Assembly (NCBI RefSeq): GCF_030063205.1
Contig: NZ_JASISQ010000003.1
Coordinates: 1-64,000 of the forward strand
Direction: 5' to 3'
DNA length: 64,000 nt
From: Arthrobacter antibioticus
GTDB taxonomy: Bacteria; Actinomycetota; Actinomycetes; Actinomycetales; Micrococcaceae
Below, piece by piece: positions 44,710 through 64,000 of this stretch. The position numbers and the translations under genes are program-made. The first letter of the stretch is position 1, and the number at the start of each line of letters is the position of its first letter. A model generated the notes under the pieces. The model did no database searches and was not told where the DNA came from. It saw only the letters and a list, made by a program, of their open reading frames with translations.

Positions 44710-44979
44710 TTACTTGGAAGCGTCGAGCTGCTGCTGCTTCTGCTTGTTCACAATGACCTTGACGTCGCCGAGGTCGCTGATGACGCGGGCAAGTGACTTC
44801 TTGGACGTGGGCCACTGGGTGCCCTTGAAGCGGGTGGCGTCGGGGCCTTCCCACTGAACGGACTGTGCCTTGCTGTCCAGGGTAGACATGACCTGAGTGA
44901 TCTGGTCAATGGCGGTGCCGAGCTTTGAGGCCAAATCGGCCATGTCCTGGGGATCGTTACCAATCATTCCAGCTGCCAT
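44710..44979 (-). CDS. WXG100-family secreted protein
   Basis: 89 residues from the ATG at 44979, preceded by AAGGA eight bases upstream; an upstream ATG at 44988 would have the ribosome site too close. The helix-turn-helix hairpin of ESAT-6/EsxA proteins is clear: a first amphipathic helix, the turn motif VQWEGPDATRF with W-E-G, then a second helix, ending in a Gln/Lys-rich tail. Such proteins are exported by type VII systems as dimers. It is the last gene of the large operon, 175 bp after the EssC-like ATPase, in the normal order for its cognate motor. Confidence 0.88.
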   Translation of the reverse strand: MAAGMIGNDPQDMADLASKLGTAIDQITQVMSTLDSKAQSVQWEGPDATRFKGTQWPTSKKSLARVISDLGDVKVIVNKQKQQQLDASK

Positions 44980-45100
44980 GCTGCACATCCTTATGTTGAA
45001 GTAGATGCCCCGCTGGCTTGTCCAACCGGGCGACTAATAGAAATCTAACAAGATTGCGGACCAACGTCGATGGGGACATCTCCCCGTCGGCCGATGTGAC

Positions 45101-45126
45101 GTCATTATCTCCAACCTCACCGAGGG
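45101..45126. repeat. Single copy related to the 17.1-kb repeat
   Basis: GTCATTATCTCCAACCTCAC lies in the gap between the EssC-like gene and the WXG100 gene and differs at few positions from the 24-mer repeated at 17158 and 17190. CCTCAC and GTGAGG here also form a small hairpin. Confidence 0.6.
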
Positions 45127-45153
45127 GTGTGAGGGTATTATCTCCCGCAATTT

Positions 45154-48100
45154 TTACCGCTCGTGGTCCATAGTGGTGGCCACCTGCAGCTTGAACGCCT
45201 TTCCACGACCAACCACATAGCCCCGGCCCGGGATGAACTTATTGTTGGAGACCCGTCCAAGGGAAGTGTTCATCAAGGTGTCCCCTTCCACATCACCGGG
45301 GTTCATGAGCAGCCCGCGCCGGCCCGCCTTGAAGAGTCCGGCTAGGCTCCACGCCCCGGACCAGGTGGAGGTTTCTCCCTCACCCACAACAAAGCAATTG
45401 GTCTTCACCGCCGCTTTGATCAAGGTCACCAGGTCCATTTCGGCTTCGGAGTCGGCAAACTCGGTTACGCCCTCCATGAAGAAGGCAACCGCTTGGCTTT
45501 CACTTTCCACTAGGTCAATCAAGCGCTGCAGTTCAGGCTCCAGCTCCCCCGGCGTCACAATGGATTCATCCCACAATGGCAGGTTGGCGATGGCGGAGCG
45601 GCGCGAACCAAAGTAAATGCGCCGTGTTCCCGGAGTTGAACGTTTAAGCGCTTCAGCCAGGGTCACCAGAGCTGTTGTGCGCCCTGACGACGGCGGACCC
45701 GTGAGCATGAGCGCACCGGTGGCCTGCAGACCGGTGGGTTCAAGATTGTAATCGTCAACACCAATGATCACATTTCCTGGAGTTGCTGCCGGCAGCACGT
45801 CCAAGTCAAGCATTTCAGGCAACGACTCCACTCGGGGAGCTGCCACCACGCCTTGGCGCCGGAGGGTCTCGGCCAGGCTGGCCACTTGGCGGGCCTGGAG
45901 GGCCAAGTTGGAGGTGCCACCAAAGATTGCCACCTGGATTTCACCGCCGTCAATCATGCCGCGGCCGGGCGGTGAGGCCGGAGTCAGGACGTCGCGCGGC
46001 AAGCCCAGGTTGGAGTAATCATCGGCGGTGGCCAAACGGAACACCAAGAGGCGCTGAACAGATGAAGCCAACGACGCCGGGAGCGACTTCGGGCTGTCAC
46101 CGGCAATGACAATGTGCACGCCCATGGGACGGCCATCGGTGGCTATCTGCTGCAGTGTTTCAAATTGGTTCATGCCCACGCGGAACTCGTACAGTTCACG
46201 GAACGTGGCCAGACCATCGACCATGACAATGATGCGCGGTTCATTCGGCTTGTTGGCCAGCTTTCGGTACTCGGCAATACTGCCGGCCTTGACCTGGGCA
46301 AAACTCTCCGCGCGCGTCTCGATGATGCCGCGAACGTACCGCAGTAGACGCCCAACCCTTTCGCTGTCCTCGGCGTTGATGATCCCACCGACGTGCGGGA
46401 GTACCTCAAGCATTTGTAACCCGTTGGAGGCAGCGTCGATGCCGTACACCTGCACGGGACCGCCGCGTGGTGTGATCGCCGCGGCGATGGCAATGGTACG
46501 CAGCGCGGCCGATTTGCCGGAGCCACTGGCCCCCAGGACGGCCATATTTCCATCCTTGTCCGGCTCAAAGAACACGGTTGGCTGGGCCTGGTGCTCGGGA
46601 TCATCCATGACACCGAGAAGAAGCTGCTCATCGGTGCGTGGTGTTGGCAGCTTCGAGAAGTCATAGATCTCGGGCAACTCACCCAGCCACGGTTTGCGGG
46701 GAGGCTTCACGCCGAGTTCCACGGCAGCCAGAGAAATGTTGGAAACCACGCGGGAGATGTCATTGGGCCCGGCCGAATCCTCCACGGGTGCGGCAACCAT
46801 TTCCTGCTCCCACGGTGCGCCAGCCCCAAAATCCATCTCAACAATGTCAATGCGCGGACGCTGCGGGGTACGGCTCGTCCAGCCACCGGCATAGCCGGTC
46901 TGGAATCCCTGGATCCGTCCGGGCCCCGTTTTAGCCGCGCCACGTCCCGGGATGGACGGGCTAAAGTACGCTGCCGTGGAGTCACCGAGAATGTCCTGAG
47001 AGTCATCCACATCTGCCATACGCAGAGCGATGCGCATATTGGTGTTGGCCCGCAGGCTGTCCTTGATAACACCTGAAGGACGCTGCGTGGCAAGGATCAG
47101 GTGCAATCCCAGGGAGCGTCCGCGGGCAGCAACATCGACAACACCGTCCACAAACTCGGGAACCTCCTTGGCCAATGCGGCAAACTCATCAACAACAATG
47201 ACCAACGACGGCGGTGCTTCCGGATCTGCTTCACGCTCCATGGCCAGCAGGTCTTTGGCCTTCTTGCGGTTGAGCAGGTGTTCCCTGAAGTGCAGTTCGG
47301 CTCGCAAGGAAGTCAGCGCGCGGCGGACCAGGTGCGGGGACAGGTCAGTAACAAGACCCACTGTGTGCGGCAACTGCACGCAGTCAGCAAAAGCAGCCCC
47401 ACCCTTGTAGTCAACGAACAGGAAGGAGAGCCTATCGGGACTGTAGGCGGCAGCCATGCCCAGCACCCAGGCCTGCAAAAATTCGGACTTTCCAGCACCG
47501 GTGGTACCGCCAACAAGGGCGTGCGGGCCTTCAGTCTTTAGGTCAAGGTACATGGGTTCAACACCTTTGGAACCAACCAGAGCTCGCAAGGAACCCTGGT
47601 GTTTACGGTTCTTCACTGCCCGGGAGGAGACAGAGTTATTTTCCAGCCACCTATCGGTGATCCCGGAGGTGCTTTCCACAAGATCGTGTCCGGCGAGCGC
47701 AACGTAGGAGACGCTGCGGGGAAGGTCGGAATCATCATCCACTGGTTTGCCTGCATCAACCACCGGTGCCAGCATGCGGGCCAGCTGTGCGGCAAGTTCC
47801 AAACTTACGCTTTCACAACTCACCGGAAACGTTAGCTGCCCTAGCCGGACCTGACCTGTTGTTGCCGTTTCAGCCACGTGGATGAAGTCACGGCAGGAAG
47901 CAGGCAACGCTTCAACAGATCCTGCTACCCACATAATGTGCACGCCCACATCGGCACCGTATTCGGTCAGACGGGTGAGACGGGCCCGGTCAACCTTAAC
48001 GTCGTCCTCAATAATGACGAGCAACGCGGGCGTGGCTGGCGCGGGAATCTCAAGCTTATTGGGATCCAGGATACCCCTGTGGGCTGCGCCGTTTGCCGCC

Positions 48101-49590
48101 ATATTGACACCGCGGTGCACCATTAAATCTTCAAGAGCTGCAAGCAGTACGCTGGCCGCACCGTTACCTGAGGCCAAGTGCTCGCCGGTCAGCGGAGAGT
48201 GCACGGAGCCTACGTGAGGGAGCCATTGGAGCCATTCCCACCGCTTCTTGGATTCAGCAGAGGTCATGGCGGCCACTGCCAGTTCGGCCGGCGAGTGCAG
48301 CCCAACCGCTTGAAGCACCAGAGCCCGTGCCACATCATCAACCACTCCCCGAGGCCCGGCAACACCCAATGCACCGCTGGTGCGGAACTGGGCTACAACG
48401 GGAACTCCATCAATATCGGTAAATTCCGTTTTGATGTCCTCGATCTCCGCCATGTACTCGGGCAGAGTTTTATTATCGCTTGGCGCCTTCACGGGAGTGC
48501 GTGAGGGTTGCCGGCCAACACCCAAACGCAAGGAAAGAAACGATTTGTGTTCAGGTCGGTGGGTCCACATCAGCGGACCGAGTTTGTAGATCGCATCAAC
48601 TGTTTCAGCCGTTGAGGGGCTTTCAGCCAACCGCACGGCACGTTCCACCTGTTGGCGTTTGGTCATTTGCCGACGAAACTCAACAATTGCCCCGCGGAAC
48701 TGAACTATGGCCTCTTTTAGGTCACGTTTGGCGTTGGCTTTTTGATCCATCCAGCTGCCAATCATCATCAACGGCATCATGGCCATGAAGACAACACTGA
48801 ACAAGCTCCGGGTCACAGCAAACATGACAGCACCCATCAGGATGGGTGCCACCAACATGATGGTTGGGAAGCGCTGGCGCTGCGGGCGTTGGGGTCCGGA
48901 GGGCAGCATTTGTTCTTCAATTTTAAACTGCGCCACAACGCGCGGTGACCGGTTGAATTCAACCAGAGGGCTGCTGGGACCCTGCTGTGCGCCCCGGCCC
49001 AGGCTCACAACTGAAATAGTTGTCTCGCCCAGGGTGACTTCATCGTAGGATCCCAAAACGGCACGGGAAACCTGGGTGCCTTCCATCATCAGACCATTGG
49101 CAGATCCGGTGTCAGAAATCTCGATAGTCTCACCGACGGTAATACGGGCATGCCGTTTTGAGGTCATGGGATCGCTCAGTCTGACATCTGCGTCATAGTC
49201 GCGGCCCACATAACTTGTCCCCGCAGGCAACGCGAATTCAGCGCCCGCATCCGGTCCGGAAACCACACGAAGGGTCGCGGCAGCCGGTCCGCGGTCCTGA
49301 TTTACTGCTGCGAAGCTCTCGCTAACCTGGGTGAGAGAGACGGTTGCGCCAGGGCGCAAACCCGATTCAAGGAGGTTACTTTCCGGTGGCAGCGTGCGGC
49401 CGCGAACACCGCCCACAATGGATTGCTCCACCAATAATGAGAGGTTTTGCGGGGCACTGGCCCCCTTGCGGGAAGGGTCAGCTAAATATAGTTCTGTGGC
49501 GATGTCCCCCACAGACGCCAGTCCGTCCACTGTGACGGCTAGGTTTTTATCCTCTTGCGGTTCACGCTTGAGGGTCAGCCTGATCCTCAT
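45154..49590 (-). CDS. EssC-like FtsK/SpoIIIE ATPase with ubiquitin-like and FHA domains
   Basis: 1478 residues, the presumed type VII secretion motor. Residues 1-95 look ubiquitin-like (YukD/EssC N-terminus); 105-200 are an FHA domain (SYVGRDYDADVRLS, SKRHARI, GSANGL). Two membrane helices span 241-278. FtsK domain 1 has an intact Walker A (GGTTGAGKS, 694-702) and Walker B (LVIVVDE, 796-802). Domain 2 has GASGSGKS (1020-1027) but a DG instead of DE. Domain 3 is degenerate (GPPSSGRTT, 1298-1306). Its start overlaps the upstream FHA/wHTH gene by four bases. Single-chain architecture resembles EssC of Gram-positive bacteria more than split mycobacterial EccCa/Cb. Confidence 0.92.
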   Translation of the reverse strand: MRIRLTLKREPQEDKNLAVTVDGLASVGDIATELYLADPSRKGASAPQNLSLLVEQSIVGGVRGRTLPPESNLLESGLRPGATVSLTQVSESFAAVNQDRGPAAATLRVVSGPDAGAEFALPAGTSYVGRDYDADVRLSDPMTSKRHARITVGETIEISDTGSANGLMMEGTQVSRAVLGSYDEVTLGETTISVVSLGRGAQQGPSSPLVEFNRSPRVVAQFKIEEQMLPSGPQRPQRQRFPTIMLVAPILMGAVMFAVTRSLFSVVFMAMMPLMMIGSWMDQKANAKRDLKEAIVQFRGAIVEFRRQMTKRQQVERAVRLAESPSTAETVDAIYKLGPLMWTHRPEHKSFLSLRLGVGRQPSRTPVKAPSDNKTLPEYMAEIEDIKTEFTDIDGVPVVAQFRTSGALGVAGPRGVVDDVARALVLQAVGLHSPAELAVAAMTSAESKKRWEWLQWLPHVGSVHSPLTGEHLASGNGAASVLLAALEDLMVHRGVNMAANGAAHRGILDPNKLEIPAPATPALLVIIEDDVKVDRARLTRLTEYGADVGVHIMWVAGSVEALPASCRDFIHVAETATTGQVRLGQLTFPVSCESVSLELAAQLARMLAPVVDAGKPVDDDSDLPRSVSYVALAGHDLVESTSGITDRWLENNSVSSRAVKNRKHQGSLRALVGSKGVEPMYLDLKTEGPHALVGGTTGAGKSEFLQAWVLGMAAAYSPDRLSFLFVDYKGGAAFADCVQLPHTVGLVTDLSPHLVRRALTSLRAELHFREHLLNRKKAKDLLAMEREADPEAPPSLVIVVDEFAALAKEVPEFVDGVVDVAARGRSLGLHLILATQRPSGVIKDSLRANTNMRIALRMADVDDSQDILGDSTAAYFSPSIPGRGAAKTGPGRIQGFQTGYAGGWTSRTPQRPRIDIVEMDFGAGAPWEQEMVAAPVEDSAGPNDISRVVSNISLAAVELGVKPPRKPWLGELPEIYDFSKLPTPRTDEQLLLGVMDDPEHQAQPTVFFEPDKDGNMAVLGASGSGKSAALRTIAIAAAITPRGGPVQVYGIDAASNGLQMLEVLPHVGGIINAEDSERVGRLLRYVRGIIETRAESFAQVKAGSIAEYRKLANKPNEPRIIVMVDGLATFRELYEFRVGMNQFETLQQIATDGRPMGVHIVIAGDSPKSLPASLASSVQRLLVFRLATADDYSNLGLPRDVLTPASPPGRGMIDGGEIQVAIFGGTSNLALQARQVASLAETLRRQGVVAAPRVESLPEMLDLDVLPAATPGNVIIGVDDYNLEPTGLQATGALMLTGPPSSGRTTALVTLAEALKRSTPGTRRIYFGSRRSAIANLPLWDESIVTPGELEPELQRLIDLVESESQAVAFFMEGVTEFADSEAEMDLVTLIKAAVKTNCFVVGEGETSTWSGAWSLAGLFKAGRRGLLMNPGDVEGDTLMNTSLGRVSNNKFIPGRGYVVGRGKAFKLQVATTMDHER

Positions 49591-50291
49591 TCAACTTCCG
49601 TTCCACGCTGAGAATCCAACAAGGGAAGATCATCCGGAGTGACCAAGTGGGAGGTGACTGAGTGTTCAACCAGCCTGGCTCGCCTGTTTGTGGCCAGTTT
49701 CCCACCACCTCCACGCAGCCCAACCACACCAACACGGTCAAGTTTGTCGCAGACATTATCCAGTTTCCGGTTGAAGCGCGTCAGCGCCCAGCCCAACCGT
49801 TTGGCGGCCTGCGCCGAGGAGGGGATGGAGCTGAAACCGGTTCCGCCACGACGCAGCATGGGCTCAGCCAGGGCAACTATTAAAGCCTTCTGCGAGTCGG
49901 TGAAGACCACCGGACCAATGGTGGTGGAACCGGCTGAGTCTTCTTCGCGGCTTTGGGACATGAAGGACGGCGCCGTGAGGTGAACCGAGAACTCGTAGGT
50001 GGTGGGACCGGCAGTGAAGATCACGTTTGTCTGGCTAAAGACAAGCGGAATCCGTGCCCCGGGAGCCATCCAGGCCTGCATGCCACCGGCGGCGTCAGCA
50101 ATGGTTGCCGAAAGCATGGTGCCGGCGTTCGTCAGCCACCAAATGCCGTCGTACTTGCTAACCTCCAAAAACTTCCTGTGCAGGTAGGGGTTGTCATCTA
50201 CCTCAATATCGCCTTCACGGCCGATGCTGAAAATGGTCTCCGGTGACGGTTCGTACCATTCGCCACAGAAATCTATGGTTAGTTCGGCCAT
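49587..50291 (-). CDS. Small FHA-like protein with C-terminal winged helix
   Basis: 234 residues from the ATG at 50291. The N-terminal 105 residues are FHA-like (FSIGREGDIEVDDNPYLHRKFLEV), with the conserved GR but an atypical HRKF in place of the S-x-x-H loop. Residues about 130-205 form a helical/winged-helix module (DSQKALIVALAEPMLRRGG, AAKRLGWALTRFNRKLDNVCDKLDRVGVVGL). It lies between the kinase gene and the EssC-like gene and may be a phospho-dependent adaptor or a regulator of the operon. No named family recognised. Confidence 0.7.
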   Translation of the reverse strand: MAELTIDFCGEWYEPSPETIFSIGREGDIEVDDNPYLHRKFLEVSKYDGIWWLTNAGTMLSATIADAAGGMQAWMAPGARIPLVFSQTNVIFTAGPTTYEFSVHLTAPSFMSQSREEDSAGSTTIGPVVFTDSQKALIVALAEPMLRRGGTGFSSIPSSAQAAKRLGWALTRFNRKLDNVCDKLDRVGVVGLRGGGGKLATNRRARLVEHSVTSHLVTPDDLPLLDSQRGTEVE

Positions 50292-50346
50292 GATGGCAGC
50301 CCCCTTGTTTGCTTGTAAGTCATCTGCCTGTGTGCGGTCCCGATCG

Positions 50347-52143
50347 TTAGGAACACTTTTTTGTCTCCGGCGAGGTCTGCCCGTTCTTACGAACAAGCTT
50401 CACTGAAATACAGGATTGATCGTTGGAACTGTTGACAACAAATGCTCTGGTCTCGGTACTTGCTTTGAACACCCCGGAGTCAACTGCGCTGACTGAGGCC
50501 CACAGATATTTGTCTCCGTCTTGCGGATCTGGGTTGGTCCAGGTCCATTCGGAGCCGCCATTTTTCGGTGTGGCCTTCAATTCGGTCACGGCTGGAACCT
50601 CGGCGCCTACAACCAGCGCCGTGGGTGGCACTGAACTTTGTTGCGCAAGCGTATCCTCTGGGGCTGTGGGGCCTACCGTCATGAACACAATAATTCCCAC
50701 CACGACGGCGGCCACCAGTCCCAGCCCCGCCACCAGTCCCGGCCATAGTCGTTTTTTTCGAACCGGGGCTACCGCCGCAGCTGGATGAGCATCGGGGGTT
50801 GGTGCCAACAGTTCACTGCGTTGAATGGTTGAGTCAAGAGCAAAACCCGGGACAATTGGTAATTCCCCCCGGTAGGCCACGGAATCATTCCACGCTGTGG
50901 GCGAGGCCATGTTTGAAAAGCCTTTGCGGAACGTTGGGCCATCTACCGAGTCTGCAGGGGCTCCAGTGTCAGTGCCGGAGTTCGGGTGCACAGAAAATTC
51001 TGACCGCTGTGCCGGTCTCTGTAGCTGTGCCGGTCCCTGTGCGAGGCCCGATCCCTGTGAGGGTACAGTCTGACCGTTGCGAGTCAGCCCAGAAGTTGAA
51101 CCGGATGTTGAACCAGTCATAGAGCTAGCGGTTGAATCAGTTGCCGTTGATGCCGCTGCACGTGATGGGAAAGTCGGGTTGGAGAAGCCAGCCTCAGGGT
51201 CAATGGAGACAATGCTGCGAATTCGTGTCTCTTCGGCCTGATCCCCCGGGCGCGCCTCATGGGAGGGGACTTCTTCCTGGACTTCAAACGGGGTGACAGA
51301 CAAGTTCAAGTCCGCTTGTACACGCATTAAAGCACGGGCAAAGTCCTTGGCCGAACCGTACCGGGAGGTGGGCGATTTCGCCATGGCAGTAGCCAACACC
51401 AATTCAAGGGCTTCGGGAATGTCGGCACGGCCCAACCGGGGCAGGGGTGCTGAATTGATCCGGTCCATCAGTTGCCGTTGGGAGTTGTCGGCCCCCGGGA
51501 CAACAAAAGGTGAGTGCCCCGCCAACAAGGTGTAGATCGTGGCACCGAGGGCCCAGACATCCACCCTGACACCGTCCGTTGCCCCGGCTCCAAAGGACTC
51601 TGGTGGCGACCATGGGATTGACATTCCACCGCCGTCGGCCTGGACGGTATCCATGGCACCGGAAATACCAAAGTCGGTCAGGGCGGGCCTGTTGTAGTCG
51701 GTGACAAGGACGTTGGCCGGCTTGATATCCCGGTGGGCAATGCCTGCGCGGTGCGAGGTTTCCACCGCTGAGGCCACCTGAATACCAATTTCCAGCGCCT
51801 TGTCCGCGCTGAACCGCCCCTGTCTATATTGCAAGTCAAGACTTGGTCGGGAGCAGTACTCCATCGCCAGGTAGGAGTGGCCCGATTCGGTGATCTCGGC
51901 CTCAAAAATGGTGACAATGTAGGGGTGCGCCGACAGTTGGGCCATGAGGTTGGCCTCCGACTCAAAACTGGCTCTGGCCCCTTCAGTCTTTAAATCCGCG
52001 GTCAGGACTTTGATGGCCACTTTTCGGCGTGGCCGATCCTGCTCATAGAGGTACACATCCGAGAACCCACCCGAACCCAGCACCGAAATGAAGCTGTAGC
52101 CAGGCAGGACGGGAGGCGCTGCCGGAGGGCGTCTGGCACTCAC
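50347..52143 (-). CDS. Transmembrane serine/threonine protein kinase (PknB type)
   Basis: 598 residues from a GTG overlapping the upstream stop by four bases. The kinase domain (about 15-275) is intact: glycine loop LGSGGFSDVYL, Lys45 in VAIK, HRDIKPANV at 137-145 and DFG at 157-159; the APE motif reads PPE. A Ser/Thr/Pro-rich linker follows, one membrane helix at about 473-497 (LVAGLGLVAAVVVGIIVFM), and a 100-residue extracytoplasmic domain with two cysteines. It would phosphorylate FHA-partner proteins encoded in this operon, reversed by the PP2C enzyme. Confidence 0.92.
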   Translation of the reverse strand: MSARRPPAAPPVLPGYSFISVLGSGGFSDVYLYEQDRPRRKVAIKVLTADLKTEGARASFESEANLMAQLSAHPYIVTIFEAEITESGHSYLAMEYCSRPSLDLQYRQGRFSADKALEIGIQVASAVETSHRAGIAHRDIKPANVLVTDYNRPALTDFGISGAMDTVQADGGGMSIPWSPPESFGAGATDGVRVDVWALGATIYTLLAGHSPFVVPGADNSQRQLMDRINSAPLPRLGRADIPEALELVLATAMAKSPTSRYGSAKDFARALMRVQADLNLSVTPFEVQEEVPSHEARPGDQAEETRIRSIVSIDPEAGFSNPTFPSRAAASTATDSTASSMTGSTSGSTSGLTRNGQTVPSQGSGLAQGPAQLQRPAQRSEFSVHPNSGTDTGAPADSVDGPTFRKGFSNMASPTAWNDSVAYRGELPIVPGFALDSTIQRSELLAPTPDAHPAAAVAPVRKKRLWPGLVAGLGLVAAVVVGIIVFMTVGPTAPEDTLAQQSSVPPTALVVGAEVPAVTELKATPKNGGSEWTWTNPDPQDGDKYLWASVSAVDSGVFKASTETRAFVVNSSNDQSCISVKLVRKNGQTSPETKKCS

Positions 52144-55257: not shown

Positions 55258-56798
55258 GCGCGTCCCACCACAAATGAGCGGTCGCCAAAGTGCACTCGGG
55301 AACCAACATCAGCTAGTGCGGGCGCGCCAGCGCTCAAGGGTTTCATGGCACCGACCAAGTTGGTTATGGCGCTACCGTTGGTGGAGTTTCGATCCGTGAC
55401 CCAGAGACCATCCGCGCCCACGCGTAGGTGCAGATGTGTTTTGGACACGGACCTGCTGGAGTCCTGAACTGAGATGAGTCGCGAAATCATCTCTCCATCG
55501 TAACCGGCGGGGTTGCGTCCAATGAGTGCAAGGGCATTAACGTCCTCGAAGCGGCCATCATCAAAGGTCAACCGCAGGGCTGGGATGGCTGGCTCGGGGC
55601 GAACCCGGGTCTCCCCCACCTCATCGTCTGCACCAGCTAAAGGAGCGTGCGCAAAGGGATCCGGGACAGTTGGCGCGGTTTGGCCGGTTGGGCGTTCGGG
55701 GACAAACTTGGCGCTGAACCCCGGTATGGAACTGATGGGGCCCTGCTCAGCAGGAGTCTGGATTGGCTGGGCTTGCTGGTTTGGCAGAGCTTGCGGGTTT
55801 GGCTGGGCTTGCTGGTTTGGCTGTGCTTGCTGGGACGGCGGCGCAAAAGGATTCTCTTGCTGGCCCTGTTGCTTTGGCTGCTGTTGGTTTTGGAACGCAA
55901 CGGGCTGGGGCGCAAACAGCTGGGGCGCAAACAGCTGGGGCGCAAAGGAATCCTCGGCACGGTTGGTTGCCGGGCGGCTCAGCGGTGATCTGACCTCGGA
56001 AATTGTTGGCACGCCGGCTGGAGAGAAGTTCTCCCGTTCAGTGATTCCGCCAGTTTCAAGGGGGTCGCGGCCCTTTTTTACGTTGAAAACCAGTGTGTGC
56101 GCCACCTTGTCATGCCAGCCCTGCTTCTTCTGGTTTGAATCCCAGGAGTTGGAAATGATCACCAGCAACGGACCCACCGTTGGAACAATGTTGCTCACAC
56201 CGATGATCAGGTAGCGCAGAAAGATTGCCAGGACCCCTGCCGGGCTACCTTCCATATTGGTTGTTCGCAGTCCCACCATGAGGTTGCCAGGTGTTTTCCC
56301 GGACTTCGCTTCCCAAAGCCACAACCAAATGCCATAGGCCACAGAGAGCAGGCTGGCGATGCTGATCAGGATCAGCAACCAGCTCAAGTCCAGTTGGACT
56401 GAACTCCCCATCTGGGTGGACTTGATGTTTAGTGCACCAATACCAGCGGCTGCGCCCACCAAAATGAAGGGCAAAACACCGTCGATGACTTTAGCGCCCA
56501 GGCGGCGTCCTGCACCTCCGGGCACCAGCGCGGTTGCAGCAGCGATGCGCGGGTCAACGCCAACCTGTTGCGGAGCCATGAGCGGCGCCGTCGATGACAT
56601 GCCTACTTCAATGATGCCTGGGAGTGTGGAAGGCTGCGTATTTTGAGCCGGACCTCCCAAGGGTACCGATGTTGGCGCCGGCGAGGCGGCACGATTAGCC
56701 ACAGCGGCACCGCACAGGGTGCAGAAGGCTGCACCGGGTGCCAGCTCTGCTCCACAGTTCCGGCAAAGATCCGACTCTTTTTGCGCCATTTGACTCAT
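55254..56798 (-). CDS. RDD-family membrane protein fused to zinc ribbon and FHA domain
   Basis: 514 residues. A zinc ribbon (Cys12, 15, 26, 29: LCRNCGAEL, FCTLCGAAV) is followed by an RDD membrane domain at about 95-245 (GGAGRRLGAKVIDGVLPFILVGAAAGIGA, SGKTPGNLMVGLRT), a Gln/Pro/Ala repeat linker at about 290-355 (FAPQLFAPQLF, NQQAQPN), and a C-terminal FHA domain (ALIGRNPAGYD, VSKTHLHLRV, DRNSTNGS). Thus it tethers a phosphopeptide-reading module to the membrane. It starts eight bases after the transglutaminase-like gene. The Gln-rich block is a tandem repeat at the DNA level. Confidence 0.87.
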   Translation of the reverse strand: MSQMAQKESDLCRNCGAELAPGAAFCTLCGAAVANRAASPAPTSVPLGGPAQNTQPSTLPGIIEVGMSSTAPLMAPQQVGVDPRIAAATALVPGGAGRRLGAKVIDGVLPFILVGAAAGIGALNIKSTQMGSSVQLDLSWLLILISIASLLSVAYGIWLWLWEAKSGKTPGNLMVGLRTTNMEGSPAGVLAIFLRYLIIGVSNIVPTVGPLLVIISNSWDSNQKKQGWHDKVAHTLVFNVKKGRDPLETGGITERENFSPAGVPTISEVRSPLSRPATNRAEDSFAPQLFAPQLFAPQPVAFQNQQQPKQQGQQENPFAPPSQQAQPNQQAQPNPQALPNQQAQPIQTPAEQGPISSIPGFSAKFVPERPTGQTAPTVPDPFAHAPLAGADDEVGETRVRPEPAIPALRLTFDDGRFEDVNALALIGRNPAGYDGEMISRLISVQDSSRSVSKTHLHLRVGADGLWVTDRNSTNGSAITNLVGAMKPLSAGAPALADVGSRVHFGDRSFVVGRA

Positions 56799-56805
56799 AC
56801 CCTTC

Positions 56806-59286
56806 TTAGGATTTCTTCAGAAACCGGGCCAGCTTGGAGCGTTTTTCCGCCCCGCCCTGGCTATTGGCCACACCACTACTATTTGCCGCTTCGCTGGAGC
56901 GAAGACCACGCTGACGTGCTTTCTTGCCGGCGCGCACTTTCGCCTCAGCCAGCAGCGACCGTGGGGAGAACTTGGCCCGTTGCCGCTTCCAGAAGCCTAC
57001 CGACCCAGTCATGCCGTTGACGGAATGGTCCACGTTCTGCCAATAGGTGGCTACTTCCTCTTCACTTGGCTGACCGGGGCCAAAAATAGCCGCATCCGCC
57101 CGCTCGGCCAGCAGCGCCGTACTGGCTTGGCTTGCCGGGAAGGCGCTGCTAAGCGAGGCTGCGCTTTCCCGACGAGTCCCGTTGCCGCCCACTTCGGCAC
57201 CAAGGTCGGTGGCCAGACTCAATACTTCAGACCATCCCCCACCCACACGATCGGTGGGAAGACCTGTGCTGTGACGCTTCTTGCGGCGCCGAGTCTTAAG
57301 CACCACTATAAGAACCAAGGGCAGGGCAATGATGATGATGGGGATGGCTGCCACCCCAAGAATCATCAGAATTGTTCCGAAGATCCCTGCTTGGTTATTC
57401 TTTTTACCATCAGTGTCCAAAGCATCGGGGGCGCTATCTGGTGGCAGGTCGGCCGGCTCCTGCGGCGGCGGCGGAGGCTGCAAGACCTGAGGCTTGGGTT
57501 TCGAAGCATTCTGGGGCTCTGGTGGGTTGGGGATGTGGTCTTTATCCGGGGTGGGGTTGAAAGGTACCCAGCCCACGCCGGCAAAGTTCACCTCAACCCA
57601 GGCGTGAACATCGGATCCTTTGACAACCACACTCCCGGCACCATTGTTAGGGTCCTTCTCATCCAGGTAGAAACCCATGACAACCCTGGCCGGAATCCCC
57701 AAATGCCGTGCCATTAGGGCCATTGTTGTTGCATACTGCTCGTCATCACCCACCATCTCTTTCCCGCTCAGCATTTTGGTGATGCGGGCCGCGCTATGGC
57801 CAGAGTTGGAGGTGGTTTGACCCTCAAGGCCGTTGCTGAACTTACCCTCACGCTGCAGCGCACTCTCCAGCGCCTGGACCTTCTTCAACGGTGTGTCAAC
57901 TTCTCCGACAATTTCGTTGGCCTTGGTCCCTACCACCGGTGGTACATTTTCAAGCTTGGGCAGGGGAACTGAACCAAAACCGGACCCGGCAAGTTTATTA
58001 GCATCAACGCTGGGAAGCTGCACATCCATGGTGTACTCATCCCCCTTGGCCACACCTGCCAGGTTCAATGCTGTGCCTGAGGCCTTGTTCAAGTACAGGT
58101 TGGGTGATTGGCCGCTAATGCTTTCATAGCTAAGGCTCTGTGCGGCGGAGACGGTGGGAATCCACACGTCGCTGTAACCATCTACAACAACGCCAACACT
58201 TGTTCCTGTTCCGGCTATGCCGTTGTTCAATGATTTGGGGTCCCCGATCGGGGCAAAGGAGGCAGAACTGTTGGGGTCCACGTTGAAAACGACGCCGTCA
58301 TAATTGTCCATGGCGGCAAGGCGGACGCGGCCATTCTTTGGCAGGTCCTTCACCGTCAACAATGCTGTGTCTTTTTCATTTTTAACGTAGTCACGGAACT
58401 TTGTCAGCGGGGATGGCAAATTGTGGAGGTCTGGCGGTGGGATCACTGTGTCACGCAAAACATCACGATCGGCGCTGACAGTCAGTGCGGGTGCCGCCGC
58501 CATTGTCACGGCACCGGCAACAAGGATGACACCTGCGCCCATGCCGATACGGCGGAGCAGTGAAGTCAGGGTGGCTGCTTTGTCCTGGATTTGCTGGTTG
58601 GCAGAAATTGCACCTGCAGTTTCGCGGCGGAGGACTTCATGCCGGTAAGCGAACCAGGCGATGGCACCTGCAGCCAAGAGAGATCCACGCAGTACCGGGA
58701 GGAAAACTTCCGTGGTGCCAAACAGAATAGCTGTGATGAATAAAACCGCCACGGGGATCATGGCCCAATAACTGTTGCGCAGGCGCCAAGCGAGCGTTGC
58801 CGTGAGAATGGCTGCCACAAAAGCGGCTAAGTACGGGACAACTAATACCTCTACGCTCGTCCCTACGGGAGGTGCCAGGGTCAGCAGTTGTTTCCATGAA
58901 AGCATGATGCCCAGCAAGAGTCCACGTAATGATCCAAGGCTGGGGATGAAGCCAAGGATCGATTCTCCGGGAGCGGCCAATGCGCTGCCAAAAACCATGT
59001 AAACAACAAAACCAAAGCCAATCATGGTAATCAGGCCCAAACGCCAGTGGGCACCCAATGCGCCCACACCGAGACCAAGAACAATGGCACCAAAACCGGC
59101 AACCAGGTAATGCGGGTTATGCCCAAATGCCGGCCCGAAACCCACAACGGCCACGCCCAGCAAAATAGCCAATACGGCGCCGTCCAGGAGGAAATGCCAC
59201 CACCGGCGCCCTCCGGCAAAAGCCGAAGGACTTGCCGAAGGACTCCGGGTGGCAACGGCCGGGTGTGCTTTCCTGCGGGCGCTCAC
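56806..59286 (-). CDS. TgpA-like membrane protein with transglutaminase domain lacking cysteine
   Basis: 826 residues: about six membrane helices up to residue 270 (DUF3488/TgpA-N type), a periplasmic-side domain, a transglutaminase-core-like region at about 495-585, a Pro-rich stretch, a further helix (IFGTILMILGVAAIPIIIIAL) and a cytoplasmic basic tail. The catalytic-Cys motif (G-x-C-E-Q-[FY]-A) reads GDDEQYA with Asp515 at the Cys position, while DVHAWVEV (His561) and NPTPD are kept. I find no Cys anywhere in the protein, so classical transglutaminase activity is excluded. Overlaps the DUF58 gene by four bases. Confidence 0.88.
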   Translation of the reverse strand: MSARRKAHPAVATRSPSASPSAFAGGRRWWHFLLDGAVLAILLGVAVVGFGPAFGHNPHYLVAGFGAIVLGLGVGALGAHWRLGLITMIGFGFVVYMVFGSALAAPGESILGFIPSLGSLRGLLLGIMLSWKQLLTLAPPVGTSVEVLVVPYLAAFVAAILTATLAWRLRNSYWAMIPVAVLFITAILFGTTEVFLPVLRGSLLAAGAIAWFAYRHEVLRRETAGAISANQQIQDKAATLTSLLRRIGMGAGVILVAGAVTMAAAPALTVSADRDVLRDTVIPPPDLHNLPSPLTKFRDYVKNEKDTALLTVKDLPKNGRVRLAAMDNYDGVVFNVDPNSSASFAPIGDPKSLNNGIAGTGTSVGVVVDGYSDVWIPTVSAAQSLSYESISGQSPNLYLNKASGTALNLAGVAKGDEYTMDVQLPSVDANKLAGSGFGSVPLPKLENVPPVVGTKANEIVGEVDTPLKKVQALESALQREGKFSNGLEGQTTSNSGHSAARITKMLSGKEMVGDDEQYATTMALMARHLGIPARVVMGFYLDEKDPNNGAGSVVVKGSDVHAWVEVNFAGVGWVPFNPTPDKDHIPNPPEPQNASKPKPQVLQPPPPPQEPADLPPDSAPDALDTDGKKNNQAGIFGTILMILGVAAIPIIIIALPLVLIVVLKTRRRKKRHSTGLPTDRVGGGWSEVLSLATDLGAEVGGNGTRRESAASLSSAFPASQASTALLAERADAAIFGPGQPSEEEVATYWQNVDHSVNGMTGSVGFWKRQRAKFSPRSLLAEAKVRAGKKARQRGLRSSEAANSSGVANSQGGAEKRSKLARFLKKS

Positions 59287-60614
59287 GCGACTGCCTTCCT
59301 GAGAACAATGGCAAGATCAGCCAAATCGCCCAGTGTCAGCACTGTGAGATCTGCAATATTTGCTCTGGCGGGTTCGGCCCCCGAGTAACAGCGCACAGCA
59401 AAGGCGCGCACTCCTGGCGGGACAGCGGCAGCTGCACTGCGCAACTGTGAGGGTGTAACCCTGGAGCCAACAACAAAGAACACCACCGAGGCGTTGGGAA
59501 CGGTGTCAGAGAGTGTGCGGGCCAGATCCACGGCTGTGCCTCTGCGGTTGTGACTTTGCAACCGTGTCATATCATCAAGGAGGTTCCGCCCTGTTTCACA
59601 GCGGATGGGTCCGCGCTGCGTCATAACGCTCAACTCACGGTTCTCCTTGATCGCTTGACGGCCCAGCGAAGCCGCAGCCGAGATCGCTAACTCAAGATCG
59701 TCGTCGTGCGCGTATTCATCCATGTTCACCGAAAGCGCCACCGCCATGTGGGAGCGACGCGTCTCCTCGAACTGACGGACCATCAATTTACCGGTCCGGG
59801 CAGTAGTCTTCCAGTGGATGTGCCGGCGATCGTCACCGGGGACGTAGTCACGCAACGCATGGAAGGCGATGTCCGAACTTGAGAGGTCCTTGGTGGTGAG
59901 GCCTTCCAGATCCTTCAGGAATCCAGCGGCCGGCCCATCAAGGGCGGTCGTGTGCGGGTGCACAAAGAGATCGGTGGGATCGGTCCACAAAACCTGGCGA
60001 CGCAGCAGCTGTAATGGATCAGCACGCACGGAACGCACGGGCCCAACGGTGATCACAGCACGGCGTGTGGTGGGGATGGTAAAGAGGTCCTCATGGACCT
60101 GCCCCGGCGCCATGCGCGGCAAATGGAAGAGCGCAGTTGCCGCGCCCACCGGAAGTTCAAGAGAGGCAGGCAGCACAGCGTGGGGGGAGGTATTTGTAAC
60201 GGCGATGCTACCAACAGCGCGATCCCCAACGGCCACACGGGTGCGCGCTAGATCAAGAGTCACCTCATACATTGACTTGCCCAGGATGAAGGCGATGGCG
60301 ATGAGCAGCAACACCACGCTAAACAATGCGGCAATCTTGGCTTCCTGCCAGCCAAAGACGGCACCAACAATCCACAACACTATGGCTGCACCCATGGCCA
60401 CGAAGCCTAAGGTACTAATGGTTTCAAGCACCGGTACCACGTGACGCTTCCACCACGTGGTGACTTTCAACCACACGGGAGCGCCATAAATGCTGGCGAA
60501 ACTGCCGCCCTCACGCCACAGGGACGTGGGGTGCAGGCGTGTGGGTGTGCCTTCGCGTTGGAACGGCCGGGAGAGAAACTCTTTGGCCTTTCCTGCGTTG
60601 GACTTCATACTCAT
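59283..60614 (-). CDS. DUF58 domain protein
   Basis: 443 residues. Two membrane helices near residues 60-110 are followed by a beta-rich domain and the DUF58/vWA-like signature FHALRDYVPGDDRRHIHWKTTARTGKLMVRQFEETR. DUF58 proteins are encoded beside MoxR ATPases and transglutaminase-like proteins throughout bacteria and are thought to be clients or adaptors of MoxR. A second start codon lies two codons in. It follows the MoxR gene at 90 bp, the largest spacing within the upstream half of the operon. Confidence 0.9.
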   Translation of the reverse strand: MSMKSNAGKAKEFLSRPFQREGTPTRLHPTSLWREGGSFASIYGAPVWLKVTTWWKRHVVPVLETISTLGFVAMGAAIVLWIVGAVFGWQEAKIAALFSVVLLLIAIAFILGKSMYEVTLDLARTRVAVGDRAVGSIAVTNTSPHAVLPASLELPVGAATALFHLPRMAPGQVHEDLFTIPTTRRAVITVGPVRSVRADPLQLLRRQVLWTDPTDLFVHPHTTALDGPAAGFLKDLEGLTTKDLSSSDIAFHALRDYVPGDDRRHIHWKTTARTGKLMVRQFEETRRSHMAVALSVNMDEYAHDDDLELAISAAASLGRQAIKENRELSVMTQRGPIRCETGRNLLDDMTRLQSHNRRGTAVDLARTLSDTVPNASVVFFVVGSRVTPSQLRSAAAAVPPGVRAFAVRCYSGAEPARANIADLTVLTLGDLADLAIVLRKAVA

Positions 60615-60704
60615 CTTTTACCTTTAGCTCAATGCGCTGTAGCTGGGTGGGCACCAGCTCGGCGGGGCGTGGTGGCTTTGCTGCTTTAACGTGGCCTAGC
60701 GGGA

Positions 60705-61676
60705 CTAAACTGACGCGCGCTGTTGGGGTGCGGCCACTTCGGCCAGGACACGGCTGAGAACAACCTCAGGAGTGGCGCCGGCAAACTCAGCTTCCGGATC
60801 CATGACGAACCGGTGTGTCCACACGTAAGGGGCAAGTTCCTTCACATCATCTGGCAGTACGTAGTTGCGGCCCTTTGAGGCAGCCCACACCTTGGCGATG
60901 CGAACCATGGCGATGGCACCGCGTACTGACACACCCAAACGAGTTTCAGGAGCGCTACGGGTTTCTTCACACAGCCGTGAAATATACTCCAACACCGCCG
61001 CATCGGCATGCGCAGTTGCAGCCAGATCAGCCATTTCGGCAACGGCCTGCGGTGTAATGATGGCTTGCAGCGTTGAAGTCCTATCCCGCTGGCCGGAGCC
61101 GGAGAGCAGCTGCACAGTGGAGGCATGATCCGGGTAACCAATTGAGGTTTTGACCAGGAAACGGTCCAGTTGGGCTTCGGGCAGACGGTAAGTACCGGCC
61201 TGCTCAATGGGGTTCTGGGTTGCCAGCACCATGAACGGACGGCCCGTCTCATACGTGGTGCCATCCATGGTCACACGGGACTCTTCCATAACTTCCAACA
61301 GAGCCGACTGGGTCTTGGGTGAGGCCCTGTTAATCTCATCCGCCAGCACAATGGTGGCGAAAATCGGGCCCTTGTGGAACTCAAACTCCTGCGCCTTCTG
61401 ATCGTAGATCATGACTCCGGTAACGTCTGAGGGCAGCAGGTCGGGGGTGAACTGGATACGGGAATTAGTTCCCTTGACAGTTGCCGAAATGGCCCGGGCC
61501 AGCATGGTCTTGCCCGTGCCGGGAGCATCCTCAAACAACACGTGACCTTCTGCCAGCATTGCCGCAAGGGTCAGGCTAATGACATGAGACTTGCCCAAGA
61601 TTGCCTGGCCAACGTTAGAGACAAGTTTCTCAAACGTTCCTGCAAACCATGTGGACTGTTCCGGGGTCATGGACAT
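60705..61676 (-). CDS. MoxR-family AAA+ ATPase
   Basis: 323 residues from the ATG at 61676, with AGAGGA just upstream. Walker A is FEDAPGTGKTML, Walker B VLADEINRASPKTQSALLEVMEE, and sensor/arginine-finger elements VLATQNPIEQAGTYRLPEAQLDRF. MoxR ATPases act as chaperones that assemble or activate partner complexes, typically with a DUF58/vWA protein, as encoded next. The gene starts 160 bp after the fibronectin-III gene. Confidence 0.93.
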   Translation of the reverse strand: MSMTPEQSTWFAGTFEKLVSNVGQAILGKSHVISLTLAAMLAEGHVLFEDAPGTGKTMLARAISATVKGTNSRIQFTPDLLPSDVTGVMIYDQKAQEFEFHKGPIFATIVLADEINRASPKTQSALLEVMEESRVTMDGTTYETGRPFMVLATQNPIEQAGTYRLPEAQLDRFLVKTSIGYPDHASTVQLLSGSGQRDRTSTLQAIITPQAVAEMADLAATAHADAAVLEYISRLCEETRSAPETRLGVSVRGAIAMVRIAKVWAASKGRNYVLPDDVKELAPYVWTHRFVMDPEAEFAGATPEVVLSRVLAEVAAPQQRASV

Positions 61677-61835
61677 AGTTCCTCTTTCGATCGTGTTATT
61701 GCGTGCCTGGCACACAGCAAACCTGCATTAGTTTATCCAGTAATTAGTGTTACTCGCCATTGGCGGGCCTACGGGAGTTGATTTTCCTAGTTAGCCGGCT
61801 TTGTAGAACGGCAGCATCCGGTGAAGAAAGTACCG

Positions 61836-64000
61836 CTAACACTCCCCCATACCGCCCGGAGTTGGTATATTCGTAGACTCGGCCTTCACATATCCCCAGT
61901 CGCTGTAGCCGGGCGAAGTGATGTGATACCACTTGTGCGAATCATTCCTGCCACCCCAATACTTGTAGCAGTTGACCTGCACGGGGGTGTTGGCCTCCAA
62001 CCACTGCGATGAGCAGTTGGCAGGGCTGCCCGGGGTGAAGTGGTCACCGTTGCCGGACGCCTTCTCCAGGCAGCTCCGCGGATTGACCGAAAGAGTCCAC
62101 GAGGTAGGCTTCGGTGGCGTCTTTTTCCCGCTCTTGGGCGTGACAGTCTGCACAGGACCGTACTGGCCAATGGAGTTCACCGTCCGTGCCTGGATGGTGA
62201 CCTGGGTGTCATATCCGCCGGTATTAAACGATGCACTTCCATTCCCATTCTTACTGGACCAGCCACCACTTGGGAGGAGAATCTCCACGTGCTTGGCGTC
62301 CACGGCTCCTCCGGGGAAACTCCAGGAGTAGGAAACAGAGGTGCTGTCAGCACCACCATTGCTGCCGCTAAGTCCGGCTGTCCCTGGGGTGCCGTAGGGT
62401 TTCACCGAGTTCGACGGCGCCGAGGCACTTCCAGAGCTGGCGAACACTGCCGATTTGGCTCGCACAGTGACGGTGGTGTTTGCACCATTGGTGGCGGAAA
62501 TCGTTTGTCCTGATGTCACAGGTATGTTGTTGGCCCCTGGGCTCACATTGGCAAAGTACGTTATCTCCCCTGGCGTGGCCCCACCCAGGGCAGCGCCGCT
62601 GAGGGCCGGGAAAGTAAGAGTGACCTGTCCACCGGATCCGCCTGTGTTGGCCAAAGCGATAGTAGGTTGGCCCACTTGACCGGGCTGGCTGACTGATCGC
62701 CAGCCAGCAGATGCCGGGCTCAGCTCAGATCCTGACACTTCGGTAGTTGCCTGGACCTTGAATGTGTAGTTGGCAACCGCGTTGGGCAGGGACACCGTCT
62801 GGCTTGTTTGCGTGGTGGTGATGGCATCTTTTTGTGCCCCATCCAAATACGTGAAGAGCGTGTATTGCTTGAGCACTCCGCCATTGAGTTTTGGTGCGCT
62901 CCAATTGACCCGCACCTGGTTTTGATTGCCCACCTGATCAACCAGTGAGGTTGTTGGCGGCGCAGGGGCAAATGGTTTACCAGCCGGTGAAACCGCCTTG
63001 GCGGTGTACGCACTCCACTCCGATGGCTTGGGCGCGCTGTTAATTGCCTGTACCCGGAACGTGTACTCTGTCCCGTTGGTCAGGCCCGGCCAAACAAGCT
63101 TGTTTCCAGTCACCGATTTTTGCGGGTTCTGGCCGGCAGGAACCGGGGAGATCTGCACGTTGAAACTCTTGACGGCAGAGTACTCGCCCACCGGGGTCAC
63201 CCAGCTCACATCCAGCGTTGTGTCACCACGGACAATGGCGGGCGGTGCCGGCTTATCCGGCTGTTGGTCGGGGGTGGCCGAGGCAGAGGCTTTGGAGAAG
63301 GCGGACTCCCCCACAGCATTTTTTGCACTCACCGTAAAGGTATAAGGCTTTGAGTTCGTCAGCCCCGTAATCAAACAGGTGTTGGTGGCACAGCTCTGGG
63401 TGAGACCGTCACTGCGTTTGACTGTGTAACCAGTTAGTGGTGAGCCATTGTCCACCGGTGTGCTCCACTTCAGCAGCACGGATTTACTCTTGACCTCCTG
63501 CACCAGCGGAACAGCCGGAACGGCTGGCTTGCCTTTCACATTCAAGGTAATGCGTCCATCCACGTGGCGTGCCGGATCCTCGGTTTTGTCGGCCACCGTG
63601 TAAAGAACAACTACGTTGCCGGTGAAATCCTCCGGAGCCTGCACTGTGACATTTGATCCCGCAACAGACACCTGTGTGCTGGGGGCACCCGTGACCATCT
63701 TTGCATCCACTATTTTCAAGGCGGTGTCAGGGAACGGATTGACATCATTCTCCAGCACAGGAATCGTTTCCATCCTGCCTGCGTGCGCATCAGGAACTGA
63801 GTCGGCATTGGCCACGGCCTTGGGTTTGGTTGAGGAGCTCACTTTGATATTCACCTCGGCTGTGACAGGTGGGTTGTGCCCATCCTCCACTGAAATTCCT
63901 ACAGAATGAGCCGAGCCCAGTCCTGCCTCTTTTGCCGCCTCAACGGTGAGGCTCGCGCCGTCGAGCTTGGTCTTGAGGCCGGCGGGACTATCTCCGGTGA
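61836..64000 (-). CDS. Large Ig-like/fibronectin type III surface protein (C-terminal part)
   Basis: The frame stays open to the right edge, so the true start is outside; at least 721 residues are visible. The N-terminal visible part is Ig/cadherin-like (VSVEDGHNPPVTAEV, PEDFTGNVVVLYTVADKT), followed by about five fibronectin-III repeats (VLLKWSTPVDNGSPLTGYTV, SKPYTFTVSAKNAVGES and similar). The last 100 residues are different: a Lys/Pro linker, then a domain with four cysteines (RSCLEK, ANCSSQW, VNCYKYWGG, GMGEC end) and aromatic residues resembling an SH3-like or secretory module. Likely exported and cell-surface bound. First visible gene of the MoxR-kinase-EssC operon. Confidence 0.88.
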   Translation of the reverse strand, partial: TGDSPAGLKTKLDGASLTVEAAKEAGLGSAHSVGISVEDGHNPPVTAEVNIKVSSSTKPKAVANADSVPDAHAGRMETIPVLENDVNPFPDTALKIVDAKMVTGAPSTQVSVAGSNVTVQAPEDFTGNVVVLYTVADKTEDPARHVDGRITLNVKGKPAVPAVPLVQEVKSKSVLLKWSTPVDNGSPLTGYTVKRSDGLTQSCATNTCLITGLTNSKPYTFTVSAKNAVGESAFSKASASATPDQQPDKPAPPAIVRGDTTLDVSWVTPVGEYSAVKSFNVQISPVPAGQNPQKSVTGNKLVWPGLTNGTEYTFRVQAINSAPKPSEWSAYTAKAVSPAGKPFAPAPPTTSLVDQVGNQNQVRVNWSAPKLNGGVLKQYTLFTYLDGAQKDAITTTQTSQTVSLPNAVANYTFKVQATTEVSGSELSPASAGWRSVSQPGQVGQPTIALANTGGSGGQVTLTFPALSGAALGGATPGEITYFANVSPGANNIPVTSGQTISATNGANTTVTVRAKSAVFASSGSASAPSNSVKPYGTPGTAGLSGSNGGADSTSVSYSWSFPGGAVDAKHVEILLPSGGWSSKNGNGSASFNTGGYDTQVTIQARTVNSIGQYGPVQTVTPKSGKKTPPKPTSWTLSVNPRSCLEKASGNGDHFTPGSPANCSSQWLEANTPVQVNCYKYWGGRNDSHKWYHITSPGYSDWGYVKAESTNIPTPGGMGEC

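Follow-up and report, generated by a model that had tools for sequence, protein, structure and literature searches.

The window analysed here, a stretch of 64,000 nucleotides (nt) from Arthrobacter antibioticus (G000:C15:1-64000, in a 3.79-Mb genome that is 99.99% complete), carries on its minus strand a row of eleven genes. In order they encode a giant surface protein with fibronectin type III (FN3) domains, a MoxR ATPase, a DUF58 membrane protein, a TgpA-like membrane transglutaminase (TGM), a protein with RDD and FHA domains (RDD-FHA), a PP2C-type phosphatase, an FHA protein with a zinc-ribbon-like motif (Zn-FHA), a membrane Ser/Thr kinase, a protein with an FHA fold and a helical C-terminal domain (FHA-helical), an EssC-like ATPase and a WXG100 protein. 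Open reading frame (ORF) calls with Pfam and NCBIfam matches bear out this content and order, which had been listed in an earlier reading of the DNA without database searches (the sequence-only reading). We lean, if by a little, towards the view that the cluster is a variety of type VII secretion system (T7SS) distinct from both T7SSa and T7SSb. It would be built onto a PFNA-type module for surface proteins and phosphosignalling, from which it would take its control and probably envelope parts. Observed at the level of sequence are the gene content, a conserved linkage, conserved catalytic and phospho-binding residues and co-occurrence with WXG proteins. The gene row is real, conserved and beyond chance; the first interpretation, a phosphorylation-gated export or surface-assembly machine, is supported in part.

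Linkage of the EssC gene with the transglutaminase module

Gene order was surveyed in the family (61 genomes), in the order (248 genomes) and in a class-wide draw (246 genomes). Within the family, 13 of 61 genomes have an EssC orthologue of at least 61% identity, and two further genomes have distant ones (29-32%). TGM, at 43% identity or more, is found in 27 of the 61, among them all 13 EssC carriers, and in 13/13 of these it shares contig and strand with EssC. At order scale the best two (EssC) or four (TGM) candidates per genome were scored, so that absences there are lower bounds. Of 26 EssC matches scoring 1600 bits or more, 24 have a same-strand TGM gene within 15 kb, and in the two unlinked cases TGM is on another contig. 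The proportion is 11/18 at 1250-1600 bits, 5/28 at 800-1250 and 0/43 at 400-800, the last tier leaving out five rows (two second fragments of counted EssC genes and three matches at 403-405 bits). The BLAST threshold overlooked some TGM genes; profiles place TGM beside EssC in L043 and L064-L066.

Sixty hand-picked loci of up to 20 kb (40 chosen by EssC, 20 by TGM) were annotated with profiles of the window proteins. EssC scores above 1400 bits in 41 of them, 28 of these 41 also have TGM, and the two are on the same strand in 28/28. EssC matches in named genomes comprise ten loci (Arthrobacter at 78-91%, one Psychromicrobium at 71%). Class-wide, 14 of 246 genomes have an EssC match at E 1e-180 or better, four of them outside the order. 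Judged by these sequence comparisons the EssC-TGM pairing exceeds chance and is old, and the co-occurrence of the two halves on one strand across related genomes, for which the sequence-only reading had proposed a gene-order survey, was found.

The window order is also the order in the family and in several other families, and the linkage persists where the genes are rearranged. L047-L050 run kinase, FHA-helical, FN3, MoxR, DUF58, TGM, EssC and WXG (some genes undetected in some loci). L045-L046 run kinase, FN3, MoxR, TGM and EssC; apart from the extra EssC, this matches the PFNA order as published. EssC directly follows TGM in L045-L050, and the kinase precedes FN3 in L045-L047. In the PFNA operon of bifidobacteria the published order puts the kinase first, and some species add phosphatase and FHA genes after the others (Nezametdinova et al. 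2021, PMC8430577). As far as the accessible text of that paper describes the operon, the likeness to the PFNA cluster drawn in the sequence-only reading holds for fn3, AAA-ATPase (MoxR in the window), DUF58 and transglutaminase, which come in the same order. It fails for the kinase, eighth in the window, not first, though ahead of FN3 in the three loci just named; RDD-FHA, EssC and WXG100 are extra in the window.

The same paper, in the text accessible, calls the FN3 protein unique to bifidobacteria. Clusters of the PFNA type occur in small genomes of one family (f4; L085-L090), which from its gene order is probably Bifidobacteriaceae. The window FN3 protein and that of f4 align as homologues along almost all of their length and share their domain make-up; this speaks against uniqueness if f4, named by gene order alone, is indeed Bifidobacteriaceae.

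Loci lacking EssC show where the two halves part. Among eight such loci, ligA was in the stretch for four and not found in the other four. In these four relatives FHA-helical is followed on the same strand by ligA at 21, 77, 426 and 2530 nt, whereas two loci with EssC have 4972 and 5137 nt between the same genes. EssC and WXG are thus missing as a unit between FHA-helical and ligA. No remnant of either was found in the eight loci at E 0.01; of two EssC-bearing controls, both were matched by EssC and one also by WXG.

A FastTree phylogeny of 70 EssC sequences, midpoint-rooted, with locus labels assigned by eye and without named T7SSa, T7SSb or TsdC references, places the PFNA-linked EssC in one clade (support 0.975), which L094 and L096 join (1.0). 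The clade also includes unlinked RDD-FHA-EssC pairs and solitary EssC. In L094 and L096 the more distant EssC and WXG genes lie near MoxR/TGM genes, an arrangement suggesting that the EssC-TGM linkage may predate the PFNA-linked clade. The RDD-FHA-EssC pairs (L057-L063, L109, L110) have no WXG gene of this family nearby, and TGM, where found, is elsewhere in the genome.

Motor, signalling proteins and candidate clients

The ATPase scores 534 bits against the T7SSb model TIGR03928 (cut-off 778; E 6e-160 over residues 211-1220) and 361 and 313 bits against two T7SSa EccC models (cut-offs 509 and 347). A Streptomyces EccC, run as a control, passes the T7SSa models with 762 and 727 bits. Members of the same clade (L047, L058), the more distant L096 and the ATPase of L092, a locus resembling the published T7SSd, miss all three cut-offs; since L092 does so, the scores separate the window EssC from T7SSa and T7SSb only. 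With T7SSb the cluster shares an FHA-type EssC, WXG100 and a membrane protein with a kinase-like cytoplasmic domain; it differs in its sub-threshold EssC, in a kinase that has its catalytic residues and in the lack of an EssB match. In the whole own genome there is no match to EssB/YukC (PF10140) at E<=1 (EssA and EsaA were not searched for). With T7SSa/ESX it shares an FtsK-type ATPase and WXG100; the EccC models stay below cut-off, and the best EccB match in the whole own genome is 10.5 bits (E 0.26, cut-off 27; EccD, EccE and mycosin were not searched for). An FtsK-type EccC/EssC-like ATPase (FtsK_SpoIIIE 1.3e-51) with a WXG100 partner places the cluster, by sequence, within type VII secretion in the broad sense, and the type VII core of the sequence-only reading is present.

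The N-terminus of EssC is predicted to be a ubiquitin-like domain fused ahead of the FHA domain. Modelled from 38 sequences (mean pLDDT 80, pTM 0.40), residues 1-290 have a beta-beta-alpha-beta-beta-beta arrangement in 1-90, an FHA sandwich at 103-196 and two helices in 243-289. A profile of residues 1-92 has a redesigned ubiquitin as its best PDB match, at a weak E of 0.0023. The FHA domain is of the canonical phosphothreonine type, and its motif residues are conserved, with G in 52/52, R in 51/52, S in 51/52, H in 52/52, N in 49/52 and G in 52/52.

The second FHA-FtsK protein of the genome (1431 aa, L008:8321-12616) adjoins genes for UDP-galactopyranose mutase and a galactofuranosyltransferase; it was rejected as a part of the system, lying beside galactofuranan genes and outside the EssC clade.

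As a single sequence the window WXG100 protein stays below threshold (18.4 bits with a cut-off of 27.3 in Pfam, 27.0 with 44.85 in NCBIfam), and its identity as WXG100 is upheld by the family profile, which matches EsxA structures at E 8e-7. Relatives were sought with a profile of 25 WXG domains, operon-linked and from the own genome. At E 1e-6, with every candidate scored, each of the 13 EssC-bearing family genomes has three to eight WXG relatives and none of the 48 others has any, a correspondence that defines a set of candidate secreted proteins. At order scale, where scoring stopped at 20 candidates per genome, negatives are less certain. Relatives are present in 26/26 genomes of the closest EssC tier. 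They are found in 6/11 TGM-adjacent and 6/7 non-adjacent genomes at 1250-1600 bits, and in 2/5 and 3/23, respectively, at 800-1250 bits. Of 176 order genomes without such an EssC, 22 are still WXG-positive, and several of these have an EssC of a more distant kind.

Many of these proteins are long, 43 of the 69 family matches lying in open frames of at least 290 codons. Twenty-four long WXG-headed proteins, scanned together against Pfam at E 1e-3, match ten families: WXG100 in three, WXG100_2, Calpain C2 and DUF2515 in one each, and hydrolase-type tails with PGAP1 in three and Abhydrolase_8, Abhydrolase_6, Lipase_3, Thioesterase and Palm_thioest in one each (these may overlap). Toxin genes often have an immunity gene directly after them; downstream of 19 of 20 long WXG-headed genes a same-strand ORF of more than 80 aa begins within 150 nt. 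At L117:2046-3218 the tail of a WXG-headed protein is a near-perfect 13-residue repeat, GGGIGSAAGAGAA. A second copy of the window WXG100 gene lies at G000:C14:136648-136914 (L020), its coding region identical to 44710-44979; the duplicated match spans 295 nt at 98.6% and stops no further than about 15 nt from the coding region on each side. Equal-scoring WXG pairs also occur in G026, G006 and G067, a hint of gene conversion or recent duplication.

The kinase and the phosphatase keep their catalytic residues, judging by alignment. In 43 kinase sequences the P-loop glycines, the catalytic Lys, HRD and DFG are 100% conserved (gaps excluded), and in 46/46 PP2C sequences the Asp of the DG, SDG and DN motifs is present. 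The sequence-only reading counted at least four FHA or FHA-like modules; there are four, of which three are canonical (EssC, RDD-FHA and Zn-FHA) and the fourth lacks the Ser. RDD-FHA has G-R, S and H, and N-G each in 40/40, the Zn-FHA motif is conserved in 37 sequences (H in 36/37), and FHA-helical keeps G-R, H, N and G in 49 sequences. Its description as an FHA/winged helix-turn-helix (wHTH) protein is sustained by prediction for the N-terminal half, where the modelled structure and Foldseek matches give an FHA fold. The wHTH in the C-terminal half was not confirmed: the best PDB sequence match is no better than E 0.45, and the Foldseek matches listed (best 50) comprise FHA folds, Smad MH2 domains and one unrelated enzyme. 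A kinase-FHA fusion hinted at by long open frames in some loci was also dropped, no ORF carrying both profiles at the thresholds used.

Gene row, junctions and neighbours

Features of the gene row, listed in order along the minus strand; coordinates are those of the window, and membrane topology is from hydropathy alone
Feature	Position	Strand	Basis
Giant cadherin/Ig-like and FN3 surface protein, 2033 aa	61836..64000 (cut by window end; whole gene G000:C15:61836-67937)	-	Big_9 x9, fn3 x3, cadherin-like; hydrophobic segment 16-34; full-length homologues at other loci
MoxR AAA+ ATPase	60705..61715	-	AAA_3 1.5e-61, AAA_lid_2
DUF58 membrane protein	59283..60614	-	DUF58 1.2e-13; three hydrophobic segments
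TgpA-like membrane transglutaminase (TGM)	56806..59286	-	Transglut_core 7e-23, TgpA_N 4e-16; eight hydrophobic segments
RDD-FHA: zinc ribbon, RDD membrane domain, C-terminal FHA	55254..56798	-	RDD 3e-17, zinc ribbon, FHA 0.0022; three hydrophobic segments
PP2C-type Ser/Thr phosphatase	54238..55257	-	PP2C_2 7e-13; Stp1_PP2C 9e-59, below its cut-off
Zn-FHA: FHA protein with zinc-ribbon-like Cys motif	52140..54272 (ATG start likely 54245)	-	FHA 5e-6
Membrane Ser/Thr kinase	50347..52143	-	Pkinase 5e-40; one transmembrane segment 470-488, tail of ~110 aa predicted outside
FHA-helical: FHA fold and helical C-terminal domain, 269 aa as listed	49587..50291 (listed ORF start 50396 probably too long)	-	43 sequences, 68% mean column identity; model and Foldseek
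EssC-like ATPase	45154..49590	-	FtsK_SpoIIIE 1e-51; predicted ubiquitin-like 1-90, FHA 103-196, two helices 243-289 (transmembrane region), FtsK-type ATPase domains
WXG100 protein, 89 aa from likely start	44710..44979	-	Pfam and NCBIfam sub-threshold; family profile matches EsxA structures

The first gene is an Ig/FN3 surface protein as described before, with Big_9, cadherin-like and fn3 domains, and it runs past the end of the window. Upstream of it lie a tandem cadherin/FN3 paralogue of 2084 aa (L007:8131-14385) and an adenylate-cyclase-like gene, and the 3' neighbours of the row are genes for NAD-dependent DNA ligase (ligA) and inositol monophosphatase. The zinc ribbon of Zn-FHA has no Pfam match and is called from conserved Cys (34/34-35); FHA-helical has no Pfam or NCBIfam match at E 0.1.

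The sequence-only reading took the row to be a single operon with many overlaps. The common strand stands, as do four overlaps of 4 nt, one of 35 nt (8 nt counted from an in-frame ATG) and a 7-nt gap. Against it are gaps of 120 nt (FN3/MoxR), 90 nt (MoxR/DUF58) and 165 nt (EssC/WXG). Alignment puts the conserved start of FHA-helical at the ATG at 50291, which leaves 55 nt after the kinase gene and no overlap; the WXG start is probably 44979, judged from the second gene copy. Promoter-like sites over the row number 6 (shuffle mean 5.3) and terminator-like sites 21 (shuffle mean 19.4), both at shuffle level. One transcript from FN3 to WXG100 is plausible.

Mechanism, alternatives and meaning

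That the system exports proteins, that phosphorylation gates it and that the front-half proteins play structural parts is what we infer from these observations. EssC would export WXG100 together with the long WXG-headed proteins, whose genes lie in other parts of the genome and some of which carry hydrolase-like tails, and the PFNA-type neighbours would stand in for EssB- or EccB-type partners. The membrane kinase, by analogy a topological counterpart of EssB, would sense the envelope and phosphorylate its partners. The FHA domains of EssC, RDD-FHA and Zn-FHA could then bind phosphothreonine and so assemble or switch the machine, EssC joining through its own FHA domain, and PP2C would reset it. 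MoxR, DUF58 and the transglutaminase may install the giant cadherin/FN3 proteins, which might span the wall as anchor, sensor or conduit, in analogy to TsdI or EsaA. On this mechanism the front-half module would have a control role and would probably also provide envelope parts. In genomes of the closest tiers that have WXG clients, EssC lies next to the front half; family genomes without the motor lack the clients and often keep the front half. Such an imbalance suggests that it is the motor which needs the front half, and not the other way round.

Several observations weigh against so close a union. The counts are not phylogenetically independent, and the WXG profile favours this family because it was built from operon-linked and own-genome members. 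TGM (at least 43% identity) is present without an EssC orthologue in 14 of 61 family genomes, which gives the front half an independent role, and the kinase, PP2C and FHA genes are retained beside TGM in the EssC-less loci L071-L075. Conversely, EssC of the same clade occurs alone (L067-L070) or with the RDD-FHA gene only (L057-L063), and G182 and G209 each combine a solitary EssC of this clade with a single weak WXG relative. In G184 (L100) RDD-FHA and Zn-FHA genes precede EssC and WXG, and the stretch has no TGM. No WXG relatives turned up in 5/11 (1250-1600 bits) and 3/5 (800-1250 bits) of the TGM-adjacent genomes, nor in 20/23 of the non-adjacent genomes of the latter tier. For the N-terminus of EssC, the Foldseek matches listed (best 50) are FHA folds with no ubiquitin among them.

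One alternative is that the row houses two machines, an envelope module of the PFNA type and, tied to it by co-expression only, a T7SS. The kinase and FHA proteins would then act on the front half, and the linkage would reflect a shared timing of expression. The 14 family genomes with TGM and without this EssC, the absence of EssC and WXG between FHA-helical and ligA in relatives, and the 165-nt gap before WXG speak for it. We nevertheless regard it as rather unlikely: EssC has a canonical FHA domain of its own, conserved in 52 sequences, the linkage outlasts rearranged gene orders, and the genome has no EssB match and no EccB over cut-off. A motor that exports or displays the giant FN3 proteins is very improbable. 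Adjacency is what speaks for it; the FN3 protein has one hydrophobic segment near its N-terminus, typical of a signal or anchor, and FN3 persists with kinase/FHA genes in L071-L075, whose genomes are without this EssC and its WXG relatives. Together these make the FN3 protein an unlikely type VII substrate, a role that the sequence-only reading had allowed it, and the WXG-headed proteins are better candidate clients.

A further possibility is that the cluster is the published T7SSd with additional neighbours. Garrett, Higginson and Palmer (2024, PMC11217815) describe T7SSc-j; as far as the accessible text goes, T7SSd is the Actinomycetota type and consists of WXG100, an FHA-ATPase with a phosphothreonine motif, a kinase, TsdH and the large Ig-like TsdI, which has a Sec signal and a C-terminal transmembrane segment, and no ubiquitin-like protein is described for it. 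Within the same text, T7SSd and T7SSe share with the window the FHA-ATPase with its conserved phosphothreonine motif, WXG100, a membrane Ser/Thr kinase and a large Ig-like surface protein, and T7SSe also a phosphatase and a separate FHA protein. The common ingredients favour identity with T7SSd, as does the failure of L092 at the same NCBI cut-offs. The window differs from both types by MoxR, DUF58, transglutaminase, RDD-FHA, Zn-FHA and FHA-helical and by the predicted ubiquitin-like part fused to its ATPase. The FN3 protein of the window, large and Ig-like as TsdI is, has the N-terminal hydrophobic segment and no C-terminal one. Two T7SSd-like loci (L092, L093), with genes for a kinase, a 147-aa protein, a 1798-aa protein (Ig-like matches in L092) and EssC, fall outside the PFNA-linked clade in the midpoint-rooted tree, which holds no published TsdC. 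In G137, the genome of L092, TGM is separate, about 31 kb away on the opposite strand. We therefore consider identity with T7SSd quite improbable. Both loci belong to f4 genomes, in which they stand as a separate locus. In L097 (12020-19404) another distant EssC gene precedes a kinase gene and one for an RHS-repeat protein of 1803 aa; the locus was considered as T7SSd-like and rejected, its large protein being an RHS protein.

Among the literature listings, which cover few subscription papers, we recognised no paper that joins the PFNA-type half with the EssC/WXG half. A scan of PMC6803598 for six terms gave no match. The accessible text of PMC8430577 contains none of 'type VII', 'WXG100', 'FtsK' or 'ESX', and the main text of PMC11217815 does not mention MoxR, transglutaminase, DUF58, fibronectin, Arthrobacter or Bifidobacterium (its abstract spells the last genus differently). 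The cluster links two literatures, on T7SS variants and on the PFNA operon, that are silent on each other in the accessible parts of the papers compared.

Carried further, the reading of the cluster as a T7SS built onto a PFNA-type module leads to a tentative proposal, which we hold as possible and no firmer than that. The cluster would represent one more T7SS subtype within the Actinomycetota. An active circuit of kinase, phosphatase and FHA proteins, together with wall-spanning cadherin/FN3 giants, would take the place of the known membrane partners, the ATPase would carry the ubiquitin-like part as a fusion, and a phosphorylation signal would trigger the firing of WXG-headed enzymes encoded at scattered loci. 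The PFNA operon of bifidobacteria would be a relative or a remnant of the control and envelope part of such a system. That operon has so far been studied as a sensor of host immune signals. If the reading is right, PFNA-type genes have an older role, common to Arthrobacter and many other actinobacteria, that does not require host cytokines, and the T7SS field would gain a compact system, outside the well-studied pathogens, for control by threonine phosphorylation.

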